Part shown: positions 10,042-62,291 of the stretch, piece after piece
Position numbering within the stretch: position 1 is the stretch's first letter
Layout of the letters: each line of letters opens with the position of its first letter
Assembly: GCF_008107685.1 (NCBI RefSeq)
Contig: NZ_VIRF01000063.1
Location: 186,001 to 250,000 of the forward strand
Direction: 5' to 3'
Length of the DNA stretch: 64,000 bases
Source of the DNA: Novosphingobium sp. BW1
GTDB taxonomy: Bacteria > Pseudomonadota > Alphaproteobacteria > Sphingomonadales > Sphingomonadaceae
Notes under the pieces: generated by a model
The model's database searches: none
Seen by the model: the letters and a program-made list of their open reading frames with translations, nothing else
What the model was told of the DNA's origin: nothing
Made by a program: the position numbers and the translations under genes

Positions 10042-10154
10042 CCGAGGGCCATCGCCCTCGGGCTCCCCAAACTGTCGACCTCAAGGTTCTTGCACCATGT
10101 GGTCTGAGAATGGGGAGGTCGCCCATTCAGGGGTCAAGGGGATCAGATCTTCGT
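10042..10154. repeat. Paired-hairpin intergenic element, copy A (second hairpin degenerate)
   Basis: First hairpin: CCGAGGGC (10042-10049), loop CATC, GCCCTCGG (10054-10061). The interior keeps the shared CTCCCC and GTCGACCTC blocks and a GAGGTCGCCC block. The second hairpin should start 93 nt after the first, at 10135. There the left arm CAAGGGG is present but the right arm is lost. The copy lies between the divergent lrgA and trmB genes, which is exceptional because most copies lie between convergent stops. Confidence 0.8.
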
Positions 10155-17714: not shown

Positions 17715-17827
17715 CCGGGGGCCATCGCCCTCGGGCTCCCGGACCAGTCAACCTCCCCTCCCACGCGCCATGGCGGCCGAGAAAGGCGAGGTCGCCCGGT
17801 ATGGGGTCAAGGGGCGATGGCCCCTTG
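17715..17827. repeat. Paired-hairpin intergenic element, copy C (complete, 113 bp)
   Basis: First hairpin CCGGGGGC/GCCCTCGG at 17715-17734 (one mismatch from the consensus). Second hairpin CAAGGGGC-GATG-GCCCCTTG at 17808-17827. The outer hairpins start 93 nt apart, as in copies B and E. It lies between two minus-strand genes, immediately downstream of hbd's neighbour and 16 bp from the hbd stop. Confidence 0.9.
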
Positions 17828-49226: not shown

Positions 49227-50249
49227 GGGCTTTGTTGCGCAAACACCCAAGGGATTCCGTTGGTGAATCCAGTTGGTTAGGGTGCGGCGATGAGCAAACC
49301 GCCCCGGGCCCGCTACCGCACGACGAACGGGAAGTCCGACAATGCAGCGCTGGCGCAGAGAGGTTCGCTTCAGGTCTGGTTTGATCCCGGGATGCAATGG
49401 CCGTCCGCGCCCACCGGCAAGCGCGGGCGTCAGCCGGTGGTTTCGGAAGCCGCAATCCAGGCCTGCTTGACCCTGAAGGGCGTGTTCAAGCTCCCCTTGC
49501 GCCAGACCACCGGCATGGTTTCCAGCCTTCTCGAGATGGCCGGGCTCGATTGGCCGGTGCCGGATTTCAGCACGCTGAGACAGAGGCAGAAGACCTTGCT
49601 TGTCGAGATTCCTTGCCAGCCCAGTTCCGAGCCGCTGCACCTGCTGATCGACAGCACGGGCATCAACGCGGTGGATGACGGGGAATGGTGCCGGCGCAAG
49701 CATAGCCCGTCCAAACGCCGCCAGTGGCGCAAGGTCCACTTGGTGTGAACCTCGGATCGTTGGATATCCGCGTTATCGAAGTGACCGGAAGCCGGGTTGG
49801 CAATGCCCCCATGCTACCCGAACTGCGGGACCAGATCCCACCCGATCACGCCATCGCGAGCGTCAGCGCCGATGGTGCTTTCGACACAAGAACCTGTCAC
49901 GAAGCCATTGCCGCGCGCGATGCCTGCGCCATCATTCCCGCCCGCAGCAATGCGCTGGCCTGGCCCCAGAGTACGCCGGGCGTTGCGGCCCGCAACGAAA
50001 TCGTGCGCTCAAGCCAATAGTTTGGCAGGGCGATCTGGAAGCGATGGAGCGGCTGTCACCAGCGCAGCCAGGTCGAAACGAAAATGCATCGCTTCAAGCT
50101 GCTGGGCCAGCGCATCATGGCACGAGACTTCGATCGCCAGGTCGCCGAAATGCAAGTCCGCGCCGCCATCCTCAAACGCAGCGTGTCGCGTGACCCAATG
50201 CCATCAAAGGTCAACTGTTGAGCGGCGACTGATTTGCGCAACAAAGCCC
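49227..50249 (+). mobile_element. IS5-type element, about 1023 bp, with intact terminal repeats
   Basis: Terminal inverted repeats GGGCTTTGTTGCGCAAA (49227-49243 and its complement 50233-50249). The transposase inside is disrupted. The same terminal sequence bounds the deleted element at 32009-32395. No obvious target duplication was seen at the flanks. Its right end falls where the second hairpin of repeat copy G would be expected, so it may have truncated that repeat. Confidence 0.85.
49290..50221 (+). pseudogene. IS5-family transposase with frameshift and in-frame stop
   Basis: First part (49290-49748) begins MSKPPRARYRTTNGKSDNA and includes the first DDE Asp in LLIDSTGI. The frame shifts near KVHL (about 49740), apparently by one missing G. 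The second part contains SADGAFDTRTCHEAIA (second catalytic Asp). A TAG at 50018-50020 interrupts it, and the rest (VETKMHRFKLLGQRIMARDF) runs in the same frame to the stop at 50219-50221. With these two lesions it cannot give a complete enzyme unless by programmed frameshift and readthrough, which is unlikely. Confidence 0.85.
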
Positions 50250-54000: not shown

Positions 54001-54801
54001 CTATGTCTTTCGCGCGGCAAGAATCGCGCGCACGTCGACAAGGTCCGAGGGCTTGTCGACATCGACCGCGGCGAGGCCGTCGCGCGCGGCGACGCGCACC
54101 GCCGCAACCCCGATCCTGCCGCCGAGCCGGGCAATCGCCTCGGCCATGGTCAGGCGTCCCAGCGCAAAGCGCAGGAGGATGCCGGGCCCGAGGCGCAGCG
54201 CAATGCGCCAGGGGCGCTTGCGGTCGGCCTCGACGGCCTTCCAGGTCTCGATCGCAGCTTCCGCGCCGGGACGGGCGAGGAGAAACAGGTTGCAGCCCGA
54301 CCAAGCGCCGTCGGCCATCTTTAGCCAGGTGCGCTTGCTGCCGGGCAGCGCCTTCTCCACCACCTCGCGCCGGGCAAGCAGAATTGCAACGTCCGCTGCC
54401 TCTCCCCCATCCGCCACGAAATCGGTGATCCACTGCGGGTCGAGCAGCGCGTGGTCGGCGGTGGTGACGAGCATTGGCGCGCCCAGGTGCGCGAACCCGG
54501 CAGCGACGCTGGCGCTGGGGCCTGCCTCGGCGGGCAGGACTTCGCAGCTCAGGTCCTGCGCCAGCGCGATCACTTCGGGTGTGCTGGTGATAACGGCGAT
54601 GCGCGCGATTGCGGCGGCTTTGAGGGCGGCGACCACGCGCGCGAGCATCGGCTGTCCGTCAATCTCGATCAGCGCCTTGTGCGCGACGCCTTGTTCGCTG
54701 GCGAGGAGATCGGGCGCGCCGGGTCGCGAACCGGCCAGCACGAGAGCGCTCAGGGGGCGGGCCTGTGCGGGGGCGGGAGAGTCTTGGGGTGAAGATGTCA
54801 C
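54001..54801 (-). CDS. Nucleotidyltransferase (MobA/GlmU-like fold)
   Basis: A 266-residue GT-A-type nucleotidyltransferase. ALVLAGSRPGAPD is the substrate-binding start, AHKALIEIDGQPML follows with the catalytic-lysine region, and TTADHALLD holds the metal-binding Asp. The typical LxAGxGxRM is loosened, so NTP specificity cannot be read. Its ATG overlaps the stop of the preceding gene by 4 bp (ATGA), so it works with the Tam41-like protein. A role in activating an alcohol or sugar phosphate for an envelope lipid is inferred from the neighbours. Confidence 0.78.
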   Translation of the reverse strand: MTSSPQDSPAPAQARPLSALVLAGSRPGAPDLLASEQGVAHKALIEIDGQPMLARVVAALKAAAIARIAVITSTPEVIALAQDLSCEVLPAEAGPSASVAAGFAHLGAPMLVTTADHALLDPQWITDFVADGGEAADVAILLARREVVEKALPGSKRTWLKMADGAWSGCNLFLLARPGAEAAIETWKAVEADRKRPWRIALRLGPGILLRFALGRLTMAEAIARLGGRIGVAAVRVAARDGLAAVDVDKPSDLVDVRAILAARKT

Positions 54802-55787
54802 GCGGCGCGGTCGTCCGTCGTGTCGGGGGAGTTAGCGGCGGCGAGACTCGCGGCCTTACGTGCACGCCATACGCTCCACAGCACGCTGGGCGCGGCGAGC
54901 ACGGGGTGACGTTCGCGCCAGGGCGTGATGAGGACGGGCACGCCGGTGTGGCGCTCGATCTTCCAGGCGGCGTAGCGCGCGGCGCCCTCGAACGTGGTCG
55001 AGGCCTTGATCAGGCGCAGCACGTTGTAGGGCTTGCCCAGCCGCTGGCGGCGCTGCCACCAGCTGAGGATACGGGCCTTTGCGGCCGCATCCAGCTCGGG
55101 CCGGATCGTGCCTTGGGGGCCGCCGCGCGCGAAGGGGATCCCCTGCGCGACAAGGGCGAGCGGGAGCAGGCCATCGAAATGCTCGCGGTTGGCCGAGAGG
55201 ATCGAATCCTCGCGCCCCGCCTTTTCGACACGGAATTCCGCCGCGTAGGTCGCGCGGAACAGCGCGCGCCAGTAGTCCTCAGGAGTGCCGCTGTCCGGGC
55301 CGAGTGCGACGGCAAGGCGTGCAGCGGTCTTCGCCGCGCCCGCGACGGCCTCTCCGGCGGTGCGCGAGGCGGCGCGGTCGTGGCTCCAGACCAGCGCGCT
55401 GGGCTGGACGAAGCGGGCCCAGATGGTGGTGTCGAGGCGCTCTCCGGCGGCGGCCGCGCGAAAAGTCTCGAGCGGCATCGTCGCGACCTTGGCGCGCAGG
55501 TCCGCGTCGGGCAGTGCGGTGCCGTCGGGCGCGGTGACGGCGGGCGAGCAGCGCCATTCGTGGTAGCTGACGCGCGGCCAGATCTTCTCGACCTGCGGCG
55601 TGTCGGTCAGGACGTAGAAGTCGAGTACGCCGTCCAGCGAGCCGGTGCGCAGGTTCGATCCGTAGAACAGCACGGCAAGTACAGGCACGGCGGACTGTGC
55701 GGCAAGACGGTGCGCGAAAGCCGCCACAGCCGGTTCCACCGGGCGTTCGAGTGCGGTCCGGATCCGCCCCAGGAGGTCTACGCTCAT
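54798..55787 (-). CDS. Tam41/MMP37-like protein, candidate CDP-diacylglycerol synthase
   Basis: A 329-residue protein. Several features recall Tam41, the mitochondrial phosphatidate cytidylyltransferase: a nucleotidyltransferase-type FYGSNLRTGSLDG with following LDFYVLTDTP (about 41-64), a central ALFRATYAAEFRVEK (about 175-189), and a C-terminal KASTTFEGAARYAAWKIER (about 261-279). The Tam41 patterns these would correspond to are GSGxxxQ...MVDFI, SYTGDFRM and the KGxxT...Y...K end. This assignment rests on my recollection of the family and needs a profile search. A TTG at 55805 is an alternative start. It is cotranslated with the next nucleotidyltransferase and follows a diacylglycerol-kinase-like gene. 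Confidence 0.6.
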   Translation of the reverse strand: MSVDLLGRIRTALERPVEPAVAAFAHRLAAQSAVPVLAVLFYGSNLRTGSLDGVLDFYVLTDTPQVEKIWPRVSYHEWRCSPAVTAPDGTALPDADLRAKVATMPLETFRAAAAGERLDTTIWARFVQPSALVWSHDRAASRTAGEAVAGAAKTAARLAVALGPDSGTPEDYWRALFRATYAAEFRVEKAGREDSILSANREHFDGLLPLALVAQGIPFARGGPQGTIRPELDAAAKARILSWWQRRQRLGKPYNVLRLIKASTTFEGAARYAAWKIERHTGVPVLITPWRERHPVLAAPSVLWSVWRARKAASLAAANSPDTTDDRAA

Positions 55788-55878
55788 GTCCTTATGCTCA
55801 GGCAAGGCCGCCTCGAAATCAAGACAGATGGAGAAACGGGTGGAAATGCCTGCGCCAGATGGCGCGTGCAGGGTGGGG

Positions 55879-56913
55879 TCAGGGCACCACGAAGGTCAGC
55901 AGCGGGCCTTCGTCCAGAATGTAGCGCCCGGCCGGGAAGGCTTCGCCATCGAGGATGAAGGGGCCTTCAATGTCCATGTCGACATCGCTGGTGGCAAAGC
56001 GGTGCAGACCATGGCGGCCCAGCAGGCGCCCGCCCAGACCCATCATAACCAGCGGCGCAAGGCCCAGCACGAGGCGGCTGGCGCGGTCGAGCACGAGGAG
56101 TTTGAGGCCCGGGGCCACCTTGCGCCCGAAAGGGCGCATGCCGAGCGGGAAGCGCTCGAAGGTGGTGGCGATGGTGAGGAAGCGGCGGTCGGTTTCGCCG
56201 GTGCCGAGCTTGGCTCCGGCATGGGGAAGCGCGCGGCCCGTCATGCGGTCGACAAGACGCGTGGGTGTACCCCGCCGCCAGGTGTTGGCCTGGCGGCCGA
56301 AGAGCGCCTGGAGGATGCCCGAAAAGATCGAGATGCCCACCGCCAATGAGTTGAACGCGCCGCGGCGGTGTGCGTCCTGGCCCGCTTCGGTGCACAGCGT
56401 GTAGACGCCCGAACCCAGGATGAAGCCCTGGACCGCGGCGAGGCCGGTGTCGGCCGCGTCGGCAGAGGTGATGCGTAGCGGGTGGCGAGTGACCGTCTTG
56501 CCCACGTGGGCGGCGGCAAGCGCCTCGGTGAGCGACCATTCGCCGGGCAGACCCAGGTCCACCGTCAGCGCGTTGGTCTTGCCCTTGGGCAGCACGATCA
56601 GGCGCGGCCAGTCCTCGCCGAAGATCTCGGTGCCGCAGGTCAGCACGTCACGCACAGTGCCATCGCCGCCATCGATCACGAGGTAGTCGATCCCGCGCCG
56701 GGCAAATTCGCCGAGCGTGTCGAGCAAGGCCTTGCGATCGCGCGGAGTTTCGGTCAGGATGTTCGAGCAGTCCGCCATTTCCGCGGCCTTGCCCTTGTTG
56801 CGGTGGCTGCGCGGATTACGGATGATGCCCACGAGCGGCACGGCGCGACCGGCCCGGGCACGGGCGACCGCTGTGCGCGAAGGGCGCTGCACGCGATCGC
56901 CGAAACGCGGCAT
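55879..56913 (-). CDS. Diacylglycerol kinase catalytic-domain protein
   Basis: A 344-residue protein with the lipid-kinase fold. IRNPRSHRNKGK is the N-terminal phosphate-binding segment and IDGGDGTVRDVL (GGDGT at 82-86) is the ATP-binding glycine loop. The next motif reads PKGKTNALTVDLGLP (109-123), where most homologues have PxGTxN. Family members phosphorylate diacylglycerol or sphingoid bases. The ATG at 56913 was chosen; a GTG at 56943 is also in frame. It is the first gene of the minus-strand arm that leads to the Tam41-like protein, 91 bp away. Confidence 0.82.
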   Translation of the reverse strand: MPRFGDRVQRPSRTAVARARAGRAVPLVGIIRNPRSHRNKGKAAEMADCSNILTETPRDRKALLDTLGEFARRGIDYLVIDGGDGTVRDVLTCGTEIFGEDWPRLIVLPKGKTNALTVDLGLPGEWSLTEALAAAHVGKTVTRHPLRITSADAADTGLAAVQGFILGSGVYTLCTEAGQDAHRRGAFNSLAVGISIFSGILQALFGRQANTWRRGTPTRLVDRMTGRALPHAGAKLGTGETDRRFLTIATTFERFPLGMRPFGRKVAPGLKLLVLDRASRLVLGLAPLVMMGLGGRLLGRHGLHRFATSDVDMDIEGPFILDGEAFPAGRYILDEGPLLTFVVP

Positions 56914-57190
56914 CGCTTCAAATTCGTAGATTGATCCGTTCACGCGCTCCACATAGGGACTCGCGCGGAAAAAATCATCCCGAAATGCGTTCTGACACAT
57001 TTGTGTGACATATTGATGGCTGTTTTGCGCCCGAGTGATGTCTTGATGGCACGAAATGATGGGGACTGCGGCAAGGTCAGGGCGCTGTCCGTTCCCGGTG
57101 CGTCGCCCTCGACACTCCTGCCCGACTCGCGCAAGGCCAGCCCGTGGCCCGCCGATTGCCAGTTTGTCCAACTCGCAGTAGGGGCCAATC

Positions 57191-58363
57191 ATGGCACAAG
57201 GTGAAAATGCAGTGGGTGACCTGACGGTCGCCGTAGTCGTCGGGCACAACGACGTGATCCTGTGGGGCCTTTCGGTCACGGAGCGGGTCGGGCGGATCGC
57301 CCGCGCCTCTGGCCTGGAGCTGGCCGCGCAGGTTTCCGACGCGATTGCAGGGTCGGACCCGGCGGGCGCGATCCTGGCCCATGCCGATTTTGCCTGGGAC
57401 CCCTCCTGGTTTCGCCACATCCTTGCGCACCCGGGCATGGTGTTGACGCTGGGCGGTGTGCCCGCGCTCGCCCATGCGCGCTCGGGCGAGGAAGCGGCTG
57501 CCCTGGCGGCGGCCATGCGCGGCGATGCGGCGCAAGGGCGCACCCTCGCGGGGCTTCAGGTCCTGGCCTTCGAGGATGGCCCGACGATCGAGAACAGGCA
57601 GCTGCGCAAGCGCGAGACGCCCTTCCTCATGCCGCTGCGCGCCGACACCGTGCGCGCGATCGAGCGGGCCAGCTATTTCGGCGCCTACAAGGGCGTGACC
57701 GACATCCTCACCAAGTACCTCTGGCCCGAATGGGCGCTGGTGCTCACCCGCATCTGCGCGCGCTGGCACGTGACCCCCAACATGGTGACTTTCGTGGGTG
57801 CGGTTTTCTGCGTGTTGGCGACGGTGCTGTTTGCCTACGGCCACTACTGGGCGGGCATGGCAACGGGCCTCGTGTTCATGGTGCTCGACACCGTGGACGG
57901 CAAGCTCGCGCGCTGCACCATTACCTCCTCGGCCTGGGGTAATATCTTCGACCACGGTATGGATCTTGTCCATCCCCCGTTCTGGTGGTGGCTATGGGCC
58001 ACGGGCCTCGCCAGCTGGGGCCTCGCCTACGACAACGCCACGTTCTGGTGGATCCAGGGCGTAATCCAGCTGGGCTACTGGGTCCAGCGCGCGATCGAGG
58101 GCATCTTCATGCAGCTTGCAGGCGGGCTCCACATCCATGTCTGGACCCGCTTTGACAGCTGGTTCCGCCTGATCACCGCGCGGCGCAACCCCAATATGGT
58201 GATCCTTTTTGTCGCGATGCTCTTCGCGCGTCCCGACATCGGTCTGGCGCTCGTCGCGGCGTGGACCGGGCTGAGCTGTGCCATCCATGCGGTGCGCCTG
58301 GTCCAGGCCCTTGTCTACAAGGCGCGCGGCGGGCAGATAGCCTCGTGGTTGGCGGAAGGTTGA
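57191..58363 (+). CDS. CDP-alcohol phosphatidyltransferase with N-terminal extra domain
   Basis: A 390-residue membrane enzyme. The complete CDP-alcohol phosphotransferase motif is present: D233, D236-G237, A240-R241, G250, D254 and D258, with the standard spacing. About six membrane segments lie in 180-390. The first 150 residues form a soluble domain starting LTVAVVVGHNDVILWGLSVTERV, possibly a worn nucleotidyltransferase fold as in fused IPCT/DIPPS enzymes. Such enzymes transfer a phospho-alcohol from a CDP donor. The ATG at 57191 has AGGGG upstream. It opens the plus-strand arm of the envelope locus. Confidence 0.88.
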   Translation: MAQGENAVGDLTVAVVVGHNDVILWGLSVTERVGRIARASGLELAAQVSDAIAGSDPAGAILAHADFAWDPSWFRHILAHPGMVLTLGGVPALAHARSGEEAAALAAAMRGDAAQGRTLAGLQVLAFEDGPTIENRQLRKRETPFLMPLRADTVRAIERASYFGAYKGVTDILTKYLWPEWALVLTRICARWHVTPNMVTFVGAVFCVLATVLFAYGHYWAGMATGLVFMVLDTVDGKLARCTITSSAWGNIFDHGMDLVHPPFWWWLWATGLASWGLAYDNATFWWIQGVIQLGYWVQRAIEGIFMQLAGGLHIHVWTRFDSWFRLITARRNPNMVILFVAMLFARPDIGLALVAAWTGLSCAIHAVRLVQALVYKARGGQIASWLAEG

Positions 58364-58365
58364 CT

Positions 58366-58794
58366 ATGCACGCGACGCTCGAGAAGTTTGGTTACCCGGC
58401 AAGTGAAGTGAAGGCCTACGAGCACTGGGTGGTCCTCGTCCGGCCGGCCCAGCCTACGCTTGGCAGCCTGGTGCTTGCGGCCAAGAGCACGGCGATCGCC
58501 TTCGGGGACCTGCCGGCAGGTGCGCATGCCGAACTGGCCGAGATCACGCGCGACATCGAGGTCGCGCTCGCGACTTTTTCGGGCTATGAAAAGCTCAACT
58601 ATCTCATGCTGATGATGGTGGACCCACACGTCCATTTCCATGTCATTCCCCGCTACGAAGGCGCGCGCGAATGGCATGGGTTCGCCTTTGCCGATGCCGG
58701 TTGGCCCGGCCCCCCGGCGCTGGGCGAAGCGCATAAGCTGACAGGCGACGAGCCGGATGCGATGCGCCGCGCGCTTCAGGCGCTCTGGGCCTGA
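58366..58794 (+). CDS. HIT-family protein
   Basis: A 142-residue histidine-triad protein. VDPHVHFHVIPRY holds the HxHxH signature. HIT enzymes hydrolyse nucleotide phosphoramidates, dinucleotides or nucleotidyl-sugars. It begins 2 bp after the phosphatidyltransferase stop, so the two are closely linked. It could remove or recycle a nucleotide intermediate in the same pathway, which is inference. Confidence 0.88.
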   Translation: MHATLEKFGYPASEVKAYEHWVVLVRPAQPTLGSLVLAAKSTAIAFGDLPAGAHAELAEITRDIEVALATFSGYEKLNYLMLMMVDPHVHFHVIPRYEGAREWHGFAFADAGWPGPPALGEAHKLTGDEPDAMRRALQALWA

Positions 58795-58811
58795 GCCGAG
58801 CCCACCCCGAC

Positions 58812-59966
58812 ATGGTCCGGATCGCTTTTTCGCTGGTCGGCGGCGCGCACCAGTTCCTGCACGGTTTGCCCGTTGCGGCCGCGCTTTCGCACCGCGCGGG
58901 CGTGGAGGTCGCGGCCTTCGTCGCACGTCGCTGCGATGGACGGGCCGCGGGCGAGTTGTTGGCCCAGCTCGATGGCCAAGCGGTCCAGGTACGCGAGATG
59001 CCGCTGCCCGGCTGGCTCGAGGCGCTCGCCGCCCGGGGCGACGCGCAGTCCCCGCTCAAGGTCCTGCGCCTGGCCCGCTGGGCCGGCACGCTGCGCGGTT
59101 TCGATTGCATCGTCGCGCTCGAGCGCACCTCGGCGCTCCTGAAGCAGCTGCCCGGCCGCTGCCCGCCGCTGGTCCAGATCCCGCACGGCGTGGGCGGTGC
59201 CCGGCGAGCGGGCGGCGGCGGGGTTGACCGGCGCCTTGCTTTGTTCGACCGCGCGCTCGTCTCGGGCGAGGCGGACCGCGCCTCGACCGTGGCGCTGGGG
59301 CTCCTGAACGATGCGCAGATCGACGTGGTGGGGCAGGTCAAGCTGGCAGGCTTGCGGCGCCTGGGCCGATTGGAACGTCACCGCCTCTTCGCCAACCAGC
59401 GCCCGACCGTCCTCTACAACCCTCATTTCCATGCCCGGCGCGGCACCTGGAAGACCTATGGCCGTGGGCTCATCGAGGCGCTGCGCCGCGATGGCCGCTT
59501 CAACCTCGTCGTCGCGCCTCACGTGCGACTGTGCGAGGGCATGGGTGAGGCCGAACGGGCGCAACTGCGTGGCCTCAGCGATCCCGACTGGCTGCTGGTC
59601 GATCCCGGATCGCAGGCTTCAATGGACATGACCTATACGCTGGGTGCGGACATCTACCTCGGCGATTTTAGCAGCCAGCTCTACGAATGGCTGATCTACC
59701 AGCGCCCCTGCGTGTTCATCGACCAGGTTGGCGATGGCGGGTGTGACGACACCAAACTGCCCGAGATGTGGAGCACGGGTGAAGTCGTCCACCGCATCGA
59801 GGATCTTGTTCCCGCGCTCGAGCGTGCGAGCGCGCGGCACGGTGAATTCGCCCCCCGCCAGGCCGAAATCGTCCACCACGCCGTGGGCGATCCGAACCTG
59901 CCCTCCGACGAGATCGCGGCGGCGCGCATCCTCGCGATGCTGGAGAGCCCTCAAGACGCGGCCTGA
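58812..59966 (+). CDS. CDP-glycerol glycerophosphotransferase (TagB/TagF)-like protein
   Basis: A 384-residue GT-B-like transferase. RPTVLYNPHFHARRGTW lies in the middle. DMTYTLGADIYLGDFSSQL followed by YEWLIYQRPCVFID occupies the C-terminal site where CDP-glycerol glycerophosphotransferases have a TDYSSxxFE segment. Those enzymes build poly(glycerol phosphate) in Gram-positive teichoic acid; here the family is in a Gram-negative envelope locus. It follows HIT by 17 bp and ends before a hairpin repeat. Confidence 0.68.
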   Translation: MVRIAFSLVGGAHQFLHGLPVAAALSHRAGVEVAAFVARRCDGRAAGELLAQLDGQAVQVREMPLPGWLEALAARGDAQSPLKVLRLARWAGTLRGFDCIVALERTSALLKQLPGRCPPLVQIPHGVGGARRAGGGGVDRRLALFDRALVSGEADRASTVALGLLNDAQIDVVGQVKLAGLRRLGRLERHRLFANQRPTVLYNPHFHARRGTWKTYGRGLIEALRRDGRFNLVVAPHVRLCEGMGEAERAQLRGLSDPDWLLVDPGSQASMDMTYTLGADIYLGDFSSQLYEWLIYQRPCVFIDQVGDGGCDDTKLPEMWSTGEVVHRIEDLVPALERASARHGEFAPRQAEIVHHAVGDPNLPSDEIAAARILAMLESPQDAA

Positions 59967-60049: not shown

Positions 60050-60796
60050 TCAGGCGGCCCACTGGTCGGTGAGCCGGGTTGCGATCTCGATGTCGTTGAG
60101 GAAGTCGACTTCGGCCCAGTCCATGCCCTCGATCGAAAGCGTGCCGACCTTGCCGGTGGGGGCGATCGAATCGATGACCTTGAGGTACCAGTGCTGGACG
60201 CCTTCAGGGGTGCGCATGGCCTTGCGTACGGTTTCGCGGAAGAGGTCTGCGCCTTCGCCGCGGAAGGCCAGGAAGCCGATCGATTCGGCGTTCGACTGTT
60301 CGGCGGTGAGCGTCTTGCCGATATGGACGAGGCGCCCGTCTGGGGTGCGTTCGACCTTCATGTCATCGCTGTCGTAGCCCTCGGCCTTGACGTCGACGGT
60401 GACCGCGATGGGCCACGGGTTGGGCTCGGCCAGCACTGCCCGGGCAATGTCTTCGGACACCAGCGTGTCGCCGTTCAGGATGACGAAGTCACCGCGCATC
60501 GCCTCGCGCGCGATCCAGCACGAGCCGAGGTTGTCGGCGACCTTGAAGAAGGGGTTGAAGCGCACCGTGATTTCGACCCGCGGGTCCTTGATGGCGGCGA
60601 GGTGGGCTTCGAGCATGTCGGTCATGAAGCCGGTGACAACATCGATACGCTTGATCCCCGCGCGCGCCAGCATCTCGATCTGCCAGGCGATCAGCGAACG
60701 GCCCGAAAAATCGATCAGGCACTTGGGACGTTCGGCGGTGAGGGGGAGGAGGCGCGAGCCCTGGCCGGCGCTCAGGAGGATGGCATGTTCGATCAT
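60050..60796 (-). CDS. Phosphocholine/inositol-phosphate-cytidylyltransferase-like nucleotidyltransferase
   Basis: A 248-residue nucleotidyltransferase of the LicC/IPCT type. The start HAILLSAGQGSRLLPLTAE is the LxAGxGxR glycine-rich loop with the following KCLIDFSGRSL. ILNGDTLVSED holds the metal-binding Asp. It probably makes an NDP- or CDP-linked alcohol or sugar phosphate. The ATG at 60796 is preferred; a GTG at 60805 is possible. It is divergent from the flippase gene with 151 bp between the starts. Confidence 0.82.
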   Translation of the reverse strand: MIEHAILLSAGQGSRLLPLTAERPKCLIDFSGRSLIAWQIEMLARAGIKRIDVVTGFMTDMLEAHLAAIKDPRVEITVRFNPFFKVADNLGSCWIAREAMRGDFVILNGDTLVSEDIARAVLAEPNPWPIAVTVDVKAEGYDSDDMKVERTPDGRLVHIGKTLTAEQSNAESIGFLAFRGEGADLFRETVRKAMRTPEGVQHWYLKVIDSIAPTGKVGTLSIEGMDWAEVDFLNDIEIATRLTDQWAA

Positions 60797-60947
60797 GGGG
60801 GTCACTGCGTGTACTTTGGGGGAGGCCTAGGCCTCTAGCGCGCGGCGCGGCGAAGGGAAAGGCAAACGCGCCGTTTCGCGTTGATTTGCGCGCGCGGCAT
60901 GTATCCACGGCTTGCAAGTCGGCGCGCGCTCGTCCACATGCCCGCCA

Positions 60948-62291
60948 ATGTCGGCCAAACCCAACCGCCCGAAGACCGAATCTTCGCTGGGGCGGATCCT
61001 TCGCAACACCGCCTGGCTGCTGGGCGGCAAGGGATTCGGTGCTGTGTGCAGCATCGCCTACCTTGCCATCCTGACGCGCACCCTGGGCCTGAAGGACTTC
61101 GGCCACTTCTCGCTCATCTTCGGAACCGCGCAGGCGATCATCGCGCTGACCGGTTTCCAGACCTGGCGGGTGGTCGTGCGCTACGGCAGCGCGCACGTCC
61201 ATGAAAAGGAATGGGGCCGCTTTGGACGTCTGGCGATGCTGTGCGGGGGGCTCGACGCCATCGGCGCGGTGCTGGGCACGGTGGTCGCGGCCATCGCCAT
61301 CTTCGGTTTCGGGCATATGCTCGAGCTGAACCCGGCCTACGTCAGCGTCGCGTTCTGGTTCTGCTGCGCCTCGCTCTGGGCGCTGGTCTCCGCGCCGACC
61401 GGCGTGGTGCGCGCGCTCAACCGCTTCGATGCGGCGGTCTACGTCGAGGCGGTGGTGCCGACCGGGCGGCTCCTCGCCGCGCTGGCGATCTGGCTGACAG
61501 GACCCAGCGTGGCACGCTTCCTGTTCGCATGGGCCGCGATCGATATCGTGGAGGCTGCGCTCTACTGGATCGTTGCGCGCCGGCTGTGTCCGGAGGGTAT
61601 CCGTCTTTCCAATTTCTGCCGTCTGCGCACGGCCTTGCGTGAGAACGAGGGGCTCGCCCACTTCTTCCTCGTTTCCTATTTCGGCTCTTCGATCGACGCG
61701 CTGATGAAGAACGGCCCGTTGCTCATCGTGGGTGGCTGGGTCAGCACCAGCGCGGCCGGTCTCTACCGCCTCGCTTCGCAGCTCTCGCAGGCGATGAGCA
61801 AACTCTCCACCCTGCTCACACGCTCGGTCTACGCCGAGGTCGCCCACGTCAGCGCCTCGTCCGAGGCCTCCGAGCTGCGCAAGCTGGTCGGACAGACCAG
61901 CAAGATCGCGGGTGGTGCGGCGCTGCTCGTTGTGGTCCTCGCGCTGGTGGCGGGCAAGTACCTCCTGCAGCTCATCGGCGGCGATGATTTTGAGCAGGGC
62001 GCGGCGATCCTCGTACCGCTTGCGATCGGCGCCAGCTTCGACCTCGCCAGCGTCTCGTTCGAGCCGGTGCTCCATTCGACCGGCCGCGCCAACCTCTCGC
62101 TCTTTGCGCGCATGGTCGCGCTGGTGGCGATGGCTGTCAGCCTGGTCTTCCTGGTCGGTTTTGGATCGACGGGCGTGGCTTGGGGCGTGGCCATTGGCGG
62201 GGCATGCTCGTATCTGTTCATGGGTTGTCTGGCGCTGCGCACGCTGCGCCGCCTCGAACATGAGGAGAAGGCTGCCGCGGCGGCGTCCTGA
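60948..62291 (+). CDS. Lipopolysaccharide/oligosaccharide flippase family protein
   Basis: A 447-residue polytopic membrane protein with about 12 to 14 membrane segments and the RNTAWLLGGKGFGAVCSIAY N-terminus typical of the Wzx/MATE-like polysaccharide exporter superfamily. It should move a lipid-linked saccharide or lipid across the inner membrane. The ATG at 60948 was chosen; the frame extends to a TTG at 60912. It may export the product of the neighbouring cluster. Confidence 0.82.
   Translation: MSAKPNRPKTESSLGRILRNTAWLLGGKGFGAVCSIAYLAILTRTLGLKDFGHFSLIFGTAQAIIALTGFQTWRVVVRYGSAHVHEKEWGRFGRLAMLCGGLDAIGAVLGTVVAAIAIFGFGHMLELNPAYVSVAFWFCCASLWALVSAPTGVVRALNRFDAAVYVEAVVPTGRLLAALAIWLTGPSVARFLFAWAAIDIVEAALYWIVARRLCPEGIRLSNFCRLRTALRENEGLAHFFLVSYFGSSIDALMKNGPLLIVGGWVSTSAAGLYRLASQLSQAMSKLSTLLTRSVYAEVAHVSASSEASELRKLVGQTSKIAGGAALLVVVLALVAGKYLLQLIGGDDFEQGAAILVPLAIGASFDLASVSFEPVLHSTGRANLSLFARMVALVAMAVSLVFLVGFGSTGVAWGVAIGGACSYLFMGCLALRTLRRLEHEEKAAAAAS

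Follow-up and report, generated by a model that had tools for sequence, protein, structure and literature searches.

Which lipid is made by the enzymes encoded between positions 54001 and 59966 of the window, the 64,000-nucleotide stretch of Novosphingobium sp. BW1 (contig NZ_VIRF01000063.1, positions 186,001 to 250,000) analysed here? A preliminary description of these genes took them for a self-contained lipid pathway, in which diacylglycerol is phosphorylated to phosphatidate and activated with cytidine diphosphate (CDP) before a phospholipid is made and extended. Gene content, gene order, folds, motifs and co-occurrence, all directly observed here, point to another lipid: the product of the cluster is very probably an acidic lipid based on ceramide, of the ceramide phosphoglycerate (CPG) type, whose presence in the host is predicted from the genes. 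The genes concerned are the following.

54001..54801, minus strand: CofC/MobA-like nucleotidyltransferase (CC_1153-like, "NT1"); Pfam NTP_transf_3, 62.7 bits, over the cut-off
54798..55787, minus strand: predicted CpgC-like CDP-lipid synthase of the Tam41 fold; AlphaFold model and Tam41 fold match
55879..56943, minus strand: CpgB-like, putative ceramide kinase; DAGK_cat, 37.4 bits, over the cut-off; GGDG kept
57191..58363, plus strand: CpgA-like CDP-alcohol phosphotransferase; CDP-OH_P_transf, 36 bits over residues 195-319, over the cut-off
58366..58794, plus strand: HIT-type protein, constant partner of the CpgA-like gene; HVHFH motif; homologues match HIT
58812..59966, plus strand: TagB/TagF-like GT-B transferase; model with mean pLDDT 81.1; Glyphos_transf under the cut-off
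60050..60805, minus strand: CpgD-like cytidylyltransferase ("NT2"), predicted to act on CTP and phosphoglycerate; NTP_transferase, 53.5 bits
60951..62291, plus strand: Wzx-like flippase; Polysacc_synt, 42.7 bits
53320..53811, plus strand: DUF2141 protein, recurrent neighbour and possible accessory; DUF2141, 77.2 bits

The six reading frames of the preliminary description are all present with their coordinates and strands; 54001-54801 and 54798-55787 overlap by 4 bp, and 2 bp separate the CpgA-like gene from the HIT gene. Pfam profiles score over their cut-offs for three of the proteins (NTP_transf_3, DAGK_cat and CDP-OH_P_transf), which upholds the nucleotidyltransferase at 54001, the CDP-alcohol phosphatidyltransferase at 57191 and the diacylglycerol-kinase-like gene, the latter with a start that is probably not the one implied by 55879-56913; the 54798 protein matches no Pfam family. 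The HIT label is borne out by motif and homologues and the TagB/TagF-like label is suggested by fold and relatives; the window's own two proteins score under the Pfam cut-offs. A self-contained pathway is not supported: the genes at 60050-60805 (minus strand) and 60951-62291 (plus strand) are further members of the same conserved neighbourhood, beyond 54001-59966, and genes resembling those for serine palmitoyltransferase (spt) and ceramide synthase (cerS) lie on other contigs of the assembly (4.46 Mb in 134 contigs, of which the window is one stretch).

The CPG pathway is known from Caulobacter, and the papers that describe it are cited here for the parts that were available. CpgB is a ceramide kinase with a diacylglycerol-kinase domain (PMC11324152, PMC10331486), CpgD is a CTP:phosphoglycerate cytidylyltransferase (PMC12275187, PMC13228409), CC_1158 is a phosphoesterase and CC_1153 is CofC-like (PMC11324152). 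The activities of CpgB and CpgD have been shown, while the other genes are genetically needed (PMC11324152, PMC12275187, PMC10331486, PMC13228409). Compared with the Caulobacter proteins as they are described in print, the window holds a putative counterpart of each published gene for CPG and its extended form, CPG2, except CC_1158.

The AlphaFold model of the 54798 protein, obtained with 39 homologues, has a mean pLDDT of 91.3, and the top four Foldseek matches to it are Tam41 chains (E 1.7e-8 to 1.2e-7). VIA-align gives Z scores of 16.1 with Tam41 7ecd (3.3 Å over 219 residues), 15.2 with 6ig4 (4.3 Å over 216) and 14.6 with 6ig2 (4.3 Å over 215), compared to 7.3 for the next fold, that of aminoglycoside nucleotidyltransferases. 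As far as the fold goes, the Tam41-like identity proposed earlier is thus correct; since no Tam41_Mmp37 (PF09139) score exceeds the cut-off, the protein is named Tam41-like by fold and not as a member of that family. A CDP-diacylglycerol-synthase-like InterPro domain is reported for CC_1161 (CpgC) in PMC11324152. The Tam41 fold makes CDP-ceramide a definite prediction: judging from fold and gene order, the enzyme would convert CTP and ceramide-1-phosphate into CDP-ceramide.

The kinase contains IDGGDGT and lacks CxxxCxxC (sequence read by eye). It therefore has the features given for CpgB-type ceramide kinases in PMC10331486, i.e. a diacylglycerol-kinase domain (DAGK_cat over the cut-off) with GGDG and without the eukaryotic CxxxCxxC. 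Its start is probably the GTG at 56943 rather than the ATG at 56913, because the codon ahead of the IYEF-type stretch is GTG in all 26 places compared (the window and 25 loci among L061-L123), at least seven of which are second copies from the same organism. In 13 of these places an in-frame stop lies six codons or less upstream of the GTG. A stretch resembling CCCTACATAG is often found within 15 bases upstream of the GTG, and the kinase message is perhaps leaderless. A better-scoring gene of the diacylglycerol-kinase type is present elsewhere in the genome, so that the kinase of the cluster need not serve ordinary phosphatidate.

The cluster has two nucleotidyltransferases. The best NCBIfam match of NT1 is CofC, a resemblance at 30.2 bits, under the cut-off of 105, and its best PDB match is 2dpw (E 1.5e-21); a CofC domain is also reported for CC_1153 (PMC11324152). 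Loci with the extension arm have NT1 beside cpgC. For the 60050 enzyme, the residues published for CpgD (PMC12275187, PMC13228409) were mapped by motif, without the CpgD sequence, in a register that we set and with an offset that moves from +2 to +5; in this register 11 of the 13 residues are kept. G12, R16, K26, N90, G111 and D112 of CpgD correspond to G14, R18, K28, N92, G112 and D113, the glycerate contacts N110, M147, K161 and S170 to N111, M149, K164 and S175 (S175 being the least certain), and W201 to W206. Across 11 sequences of the family there is no variation in G14, R18, K28, N92, N111, G112, D113, M149 and K164, and almost none in W206. Most of the catalytic or nucleotide-site residues tested are also common to related nucleotidyltransferases. 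Given the missing CpgD sequence and the moving offset, the catalytic part of the comparison is firm and the substrate-specific residues are only suggestive. None of the PDB matches at E ≤ 0.001 of the 60050 enzyme and of its L100 homologue is labelled CpgD. In L100 this homologue lies in one run with NT1 and with cpgA-, cpgB-, cpgC- and cerS-like genes.

The other arm starts with the CpgA-like protein, which is extended at its N-terminus by about 190 residues. D233, D236, G237, A240, R241, G250, D254 and D258 are invariant in 14 sequences, and what we take to be the CDP-alcohol transferase active-site motif is intact. The 58366 protein has the HxHxH motif as HVHFH; it scores 16.1 bits with HIT (PF01230), under the cut-off of 21.5, which five of the six homologues scanned exceed, and it is therefore termed HIT-type from its homologues and its motif. 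The co-occurrence of these genes was counted in 98 genomes (the window's genome plus others of its genus and order), with the CpgA-like gene accepted at E < 1e-60 and matches at E > 1e-16 being dropped, with a clear gap in between. The CpgA-like gene is present in 23 of the 98 genomes, and the HIT gene in the identical 23 and in none of the 75 others; the two matches are at most 40 bp apart in 15 genomes, 2.5–3.9 kb apart in five and on different contigs in three. The cpgC gene occurs in 23/23 CpgA-positive genomes compared to 30/75 of the rest. In each of four families (f1, f2, f4 and f6) some genomes have the CpgA-like gene and others lack it. Based on these counts the HIT protein is very likely a member of the pathway. 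No HIT gene linked to the CPG pathway was found in the parts of the literature available, and S1 Text of PMC11324152 may cover more genes; the same paper reports that CC_1385, an unlinked gene, shows cofitness with CC_1159 in Caulobacter. A second CDP-alcohol transferase, 32–37% identical to the window's CpgA-like protein, adjoins an LptG2-like gene in L094 (16027-17238) and also in L089 and L099, in one genus.

The conservation of the neighbourhood, whose whole order the preliminary description proposed to compare, differs between its parts. An alignment of five sequences gave 570 confirmed relatives of the 54798 protein, the best 80 of which, close relatives only, were compared; several come from the same organisms as other loci counted here, so that the counts of these sets overlap. 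The closest locus is that of N. profundi (83%), followed mostly by Novosphingobium (about 70–73%), and Caulobacter is absent among these best 80. The kinase directly precedes the 54798 homologue on the same strand in 80/80 loci. Among the 72 loci with enough flank, 49 have no CpgA, HIT or TagB gene and no NT1 adjoining cpgC. NT1 does adjoin it in the other 23; CpgA and HIT are present as well in 21 of these, and only a TagB-like gene in two. The lipid kinase, the Tam41-type fold and the CDP-alcohol phosphotransferase are thus conserved together, the pair formed by the first two being constant whereas the CpgA/HIT arm is found in 21/72 loci and the TagB-like gene is rare at this spot. Kinase and CpgC without the extension genes, or with them, are modules that fit Caulobacter genetics. 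In a species known here by its epithet only, "mobilis", genes for CPG and not for CPG2 are described.

The nature of the lipid is indicated by the genes around the homologues. The 54798 protein is found in 35 of 289 genomes of the class, its own included, and stretches from 20 of them (L081-L100) were searched by tblastn. They contain a kinase homologue in 19/20 cases, an spt-like gene in 16/20 (among them L094, which supplied the query for it) and a CpgA-like gene in 9/20. The labels spt-, aasR- (AMP-binding), cerR- (epimerase) and cerS-like (GNAT) are ours and were given by context. The order of Pfam matches in L094 is AMP-binding, epimerase, class I/II aminotransferase and the 54798 homologue (no match), then, after the kinase and the CpgA-like gene, calcineurin-like phosphoesterase, two LptF/LptG, CDP-OH_P transferase, fatty acid hydroxylase and GNAT; this resembles the C. 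crescentus cluster as published in PMC11324152. In L082 and L083, genes resembling wzx, tagB, aasR, cerR and spt, the 54798 homologue, the kinase and the CpgA-like gene lie within the same 20 kb as phosphoesterase, HIT, LptF2, LptG2, hydroxylase, cerS-like and NT1 genes. In the window's own genome the spt-like gene (53%) is on contig C11 and the cerS-like gene (41%) is on C62, near LptF2/LptG2-like genes; the backbone genes are likewise scattered in Sphingomonadales (PMC11324152). The homologues keep company with genes resembling those of ceramide synthesis, and they match the ceramide pathway of Caulobacter; the diacylglycerol and phosphatidate of the preliminary description are therefore not supported. 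A DUF2141 gene occurs in six of the 20 class loci, five of them outside the window's family. Loci in which it accompanies cpg genes are L084, L090, L091, L095 and L097, distant families included.

The TagB/TagF-like gene is more difficult to place. Its AlphaFold model, built from four sequences, has a GT-B fold, whose nearest relatives are UDP-GlcNAc 2-epimerases (Z up to 24.0), TagF (22.6) and TarL (22.0), too close to be separated. Glyphos_transf (PF04464) matches the window protein at 11.2 bits (E 0.18), under the cut-off of 22.1, and seven of eight relatives, always under the cut-off (17.3 at best); the best PDB match of the profile is TarL (E 0.011). The sequence leans to TagF. When counted at E < 1e-30, which drops a match in G095 (E 2.5e-5), the gene is present in 27/98 genomes. 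Of these, 26 have cpgC and 20 have the CpgA-like gene, compared to 27/71 and 3/71 of the others. Within the genus (59 genomes) cpgC is found in 16/17 TagB-positive genomes vs 7/42 others, and the link of TagB to the pathway rests mainly on this genus; outside it (39 genomes) the CpgA-like gene is found in 6/10 vs 2/29 (p 0.0014), the genomes being related so that this and the other Fisher values are not true probabilities. From these counts TagB is likely a member of the pathway. The gene is found at exactly this spot in 0/13 same-genus stretches and in 1/80 loci (the best 80 of 570). Among 12 TagB-like places elsewhere, hand-picked from 33 match rows, a Wzx-like gene lies within 2 kb in six and cpgB or cpgC is near in two. 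The TagB-like gene is inside the cpg cluster in L082, L083, L205 and L206, and a Wzx-like gene adjoins it in L082, L083 and L204-L209. In one of the latter, L209 (G027), TagB-like, Wzx-like, DUF2141 and LptF-like genes are close together despite the absence of cpgC.

The Caulobacter cluster includes a potential flippase, CC_1166 (PMC11324152, PMC12275187, PMC10331486, PMC13228409), while CC_1167 is probably unrelated (PMC11324152). In the available parts of PMC12275187 a chemical analogy is drawn to TagD and TagF and no TagF-like gene is named; nor was a TagF-like gene linked to the CPG pathway found in the portions of the literature available, S1 Text of PMC11324152 possibly covering more genes. 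In N. profundi (L101, 6421-8765) and in Novosphingobium sp. CF614 (L110, 4871-7204) the place of CpgA-HIT-60050 is taken by genes for a TagB-like protein and a GT4 glycosyltransferase, and because of this replacement the head group probably varies between species. In G002 TagB- and cpgC-like genes are similarly spaced, with no CpgA-like gene (E < 1e-3) and no HIT gene.

Put together, the preferred pathway would run as follows. The CpgB-like kinase would phosphorylate ceramide, and the CpgC-like enzyme would use CTP to activate ceramide-1-phosphate, a step towards CPG. The CpgD-like enzyme at 60050 would form CDP-glycerate from CTP and 2-phosphoglycerate, from which the CpgA-like enzyme would transfer phosphoglycerate onto CPG to give CPG2; the CofC-like enzyme would provide a second activating step. 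A member of the HIT superfamily, the CDP-diglyceride hydrolase of E. coli, is able to transfer CMP. The HIT protein may act in the CpgA step, where its most likely role would be to cleave CMP off a CDP-linked intermediate or to transfer it. The head group may receive a further phospho-alcohol or sugar from the TagB/TagF-like enzyme; the product may be flipped by the Wzx-like protein. A bolder version has a ceramide-anchored oligo- or poly(phosphoglycerate), similar to a teichoic acid, on a Gram-negative outer-membrane sphingolipid: the CpgD-like enzyme would supply CDP-glycerate, CpgA and HIT would start a chain, the TagF-like enzyme would lengthen it and the Wzx-like protein would flip it. 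The polymer step, also proposed in the preliminary description, is one that we infer, and such a polymer is rather improbable.

A number of observations weigh against the CPG reading or blur it. Besides the lack of a Pfam family for the 54798 protein, only one of 19 homologues (L098) matches Tam41_Mmp37, at 23.1 bits for a cut-off of 24. The cytosine contacts T88 and T93 of CpgD correspond to A90 and S95 in the 60050 enzyme (T88 is a backbone contact; PMC12275187, PMC13228409), and the published cpgD primer pattern for C. crescentus was found in 0/7, 0/31 and 0/17 genomes. No spt-like gene is seen in the stretches of L081, L092, L093 and L096 (4/20 class loci). L089, L092, L094, L099 and L100 have a CpgA-like gene and no HIT gene in their stretches, to which the search for HIT and TagB genes in the class was confined. 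In four of the 49 loci counted as lacking the arm (L147, L159, L166 and L174), NT1 is a few kb away, and the stretches of L101 and L110 have no CpgA-HIT-60050 arm. The TagB relatives of these last two loci score higher with Glyco_transf_4 than with Glyphos_transf, and that of L082 has no match. Outside the genus the association with cpgC is weak for the CpgA-like gene (8/8 vs 22/31, p 0.16) as for the TagB-like gene (10/10 vs 20/29, p 0.08). Three CpgA-positive genomes have no TagB-like gene (G038, 68% complete; G059; G082, 85% complete), and one TagB-positive genome, G027, has no cpgC. No CC_1158-like phosphoesterase is found in the window or in the genome's own stretches L188 and L189; S. 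wittichii and H. neptunium have no phosphoesterase of this type (PMC11324152).

The glycerophospholipid pathway of the preliminary description, from diacylglycerol kinase through phosphatidate and CDP-diacylglycerol (Tam41-like enzyme) to a phospholipid extended by the TagB-like enzyme, is formally the chemistry of a DAGK_cat domain and a Tam41 fold, and CpgB of Caulobacter accepts diacylglycerol in vitro as well, a point against the ceramide reading. On the contrary, deletion of cpgB leaves phosphatidate unchanged in Caulobacter (both from PMC10331486), the spt-like gene shares the stretch with the homologues in most class loci, and the neighbouring 60050 enzyme resembles CpgD. Diacylglycerol was rejected as the lipid on genome context, and this pathway is very unlikely. 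Even slightly less probable is an inositol lipid or di-inositol-phosphate, for which the CDP-alcohol transferase, as a synthase of the inositol-phosphate type, would act on CDP-ceramide and the 60050 enzyme would serve as inositol-phosphate cytidylyltransferase. In its favour, the CpgA-like protein has its best NCBIfam matches with the inositol-phosphate synthases PIPSynth (3.5e-14) and archaetidylinositol phosphate synthase (7.4e-11). The 60050 enzyme is matched at 2.3e-13 by the Thermococcus IPCT/DIPPS model, and all these matches are under the cut-offs. These matches are expected, since the nearest fold of CpgD is itself an inositol-phosphate cytidylyltransferase (PMC12275187), and the probable counterparts of the glycerate contacts, N111, M149 and K164, are among the residues invariant in the family in the register we set.

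The CPG reading can also be narrowed, the TagB-like and Wzx-like genes being then part of a capsule or exopolysaccharide system that only happens to be next to the CPG cluster. This is somewhat unlikely, although it deserves more credit than the previous two. It would account for the absence of the TagB-like gene from this spot in the 13 same-genus stretches, for the UDP-GlcNAc 2-epimerases that come slightly above TagF by fold, for the ten of 12 places elsewhere with no cpgB or cpgC near, and for the weak TagB-cpgC link outside the genus. The association of TagB with cpgC and with the CpgA-like gene over the 98 genomes, which for the latter is also seen outside the genus, and the position of the gene within the cpg cluster in four loci argue for membership in the pathway.

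The window has other features as well. A REP-like dispersed palindrome, GAGGGC(C/G)AT(C/G)GCCCTC, has 10 matches with at most two mismatches, compared to 0.27 expected: exact 16-bp copies at 10044, 11030, 25193, 40945, 46126, 53965 and 63577, and inexact ones at 17717 (one mismatch), 50338 and 51355 (two mismatches). One copy sits between the DUF2141 gene and NT1. Frames at 49290-50200, beside a heparinase-like gene, resemble a broken transposase, presumably of the IS5 type. Promoter and terminator scans gave results no better than shuffled sequence.

CPG-type lipids assist the survival of Caulobacter without lipopolysaccharide and render it sensitive to polymyxin (PMC11324152, PMC12275187). 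The HIT protein, which has the same distribution as the CpgA-like protein, and the TagF-like enzyme are concrete candidates that can be tested, and the exact HIT-CpgA match makes an open part of a known pathway testable.

How does the cluster compare with known systems? The Tam41 CDP-diacylglycerol synthases 6ig4, 6ig2 and 7ecd share the fold of the 54798 protein over 215–219 aligned residues, with only 11–14% identity, and differ in that the genome context of the latter points to ceramide phosphate as the substrate. TagF and TarL have the same GT-B fold as the TagB-like protein, whose ADIYLGD-SSQ-YE stretch lines up with TDLLISDYSSLIYE in TarL; they differ in that the window protein is under the Glyphos_transf cut-off and that UDP-GlcNAc 2-epimerases are equally near by fold. 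They use CDP-glycerol or CDP-ribitol, whereas the donor of the window enzyme would probably be CDP-glycerate. In the synthesis of Bacteroides inositol phosphoceramide, a phosphorylated head group is likewise put on ceramide by an enzyme of the CDP-alcohol transferase type; the window differs by its CpgD-like enzyme, and the Bacteroides model PIPSynBT1523 matches the CpgA-like protein at 4e-6, far under the cut-off. The closest system is the Caulobacter CPG pathway, with which the cluster shares the kinase, the CDP-diacylglycerol-synthase-like enzyme, the CDP-alcohol transferase, the CofC-like and COG1213-type nucleotidyltransferases and the flippase, and whose likeness extends to the alphaproteobacterial homologues that cluster with ceramide-synthesis-like and LptF2/LptG2-like genes. 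It differs from it by its two divergent arms, located away from the ceramide genes, by showing no CC_1158-like phosphoesterase in the stretches examined, and by the HIT and TagB/TagF-like genes, which are outside the published six enzymes. The locus would thus be a known pathway with two candidate extra enzymes, which may fill its open steps.

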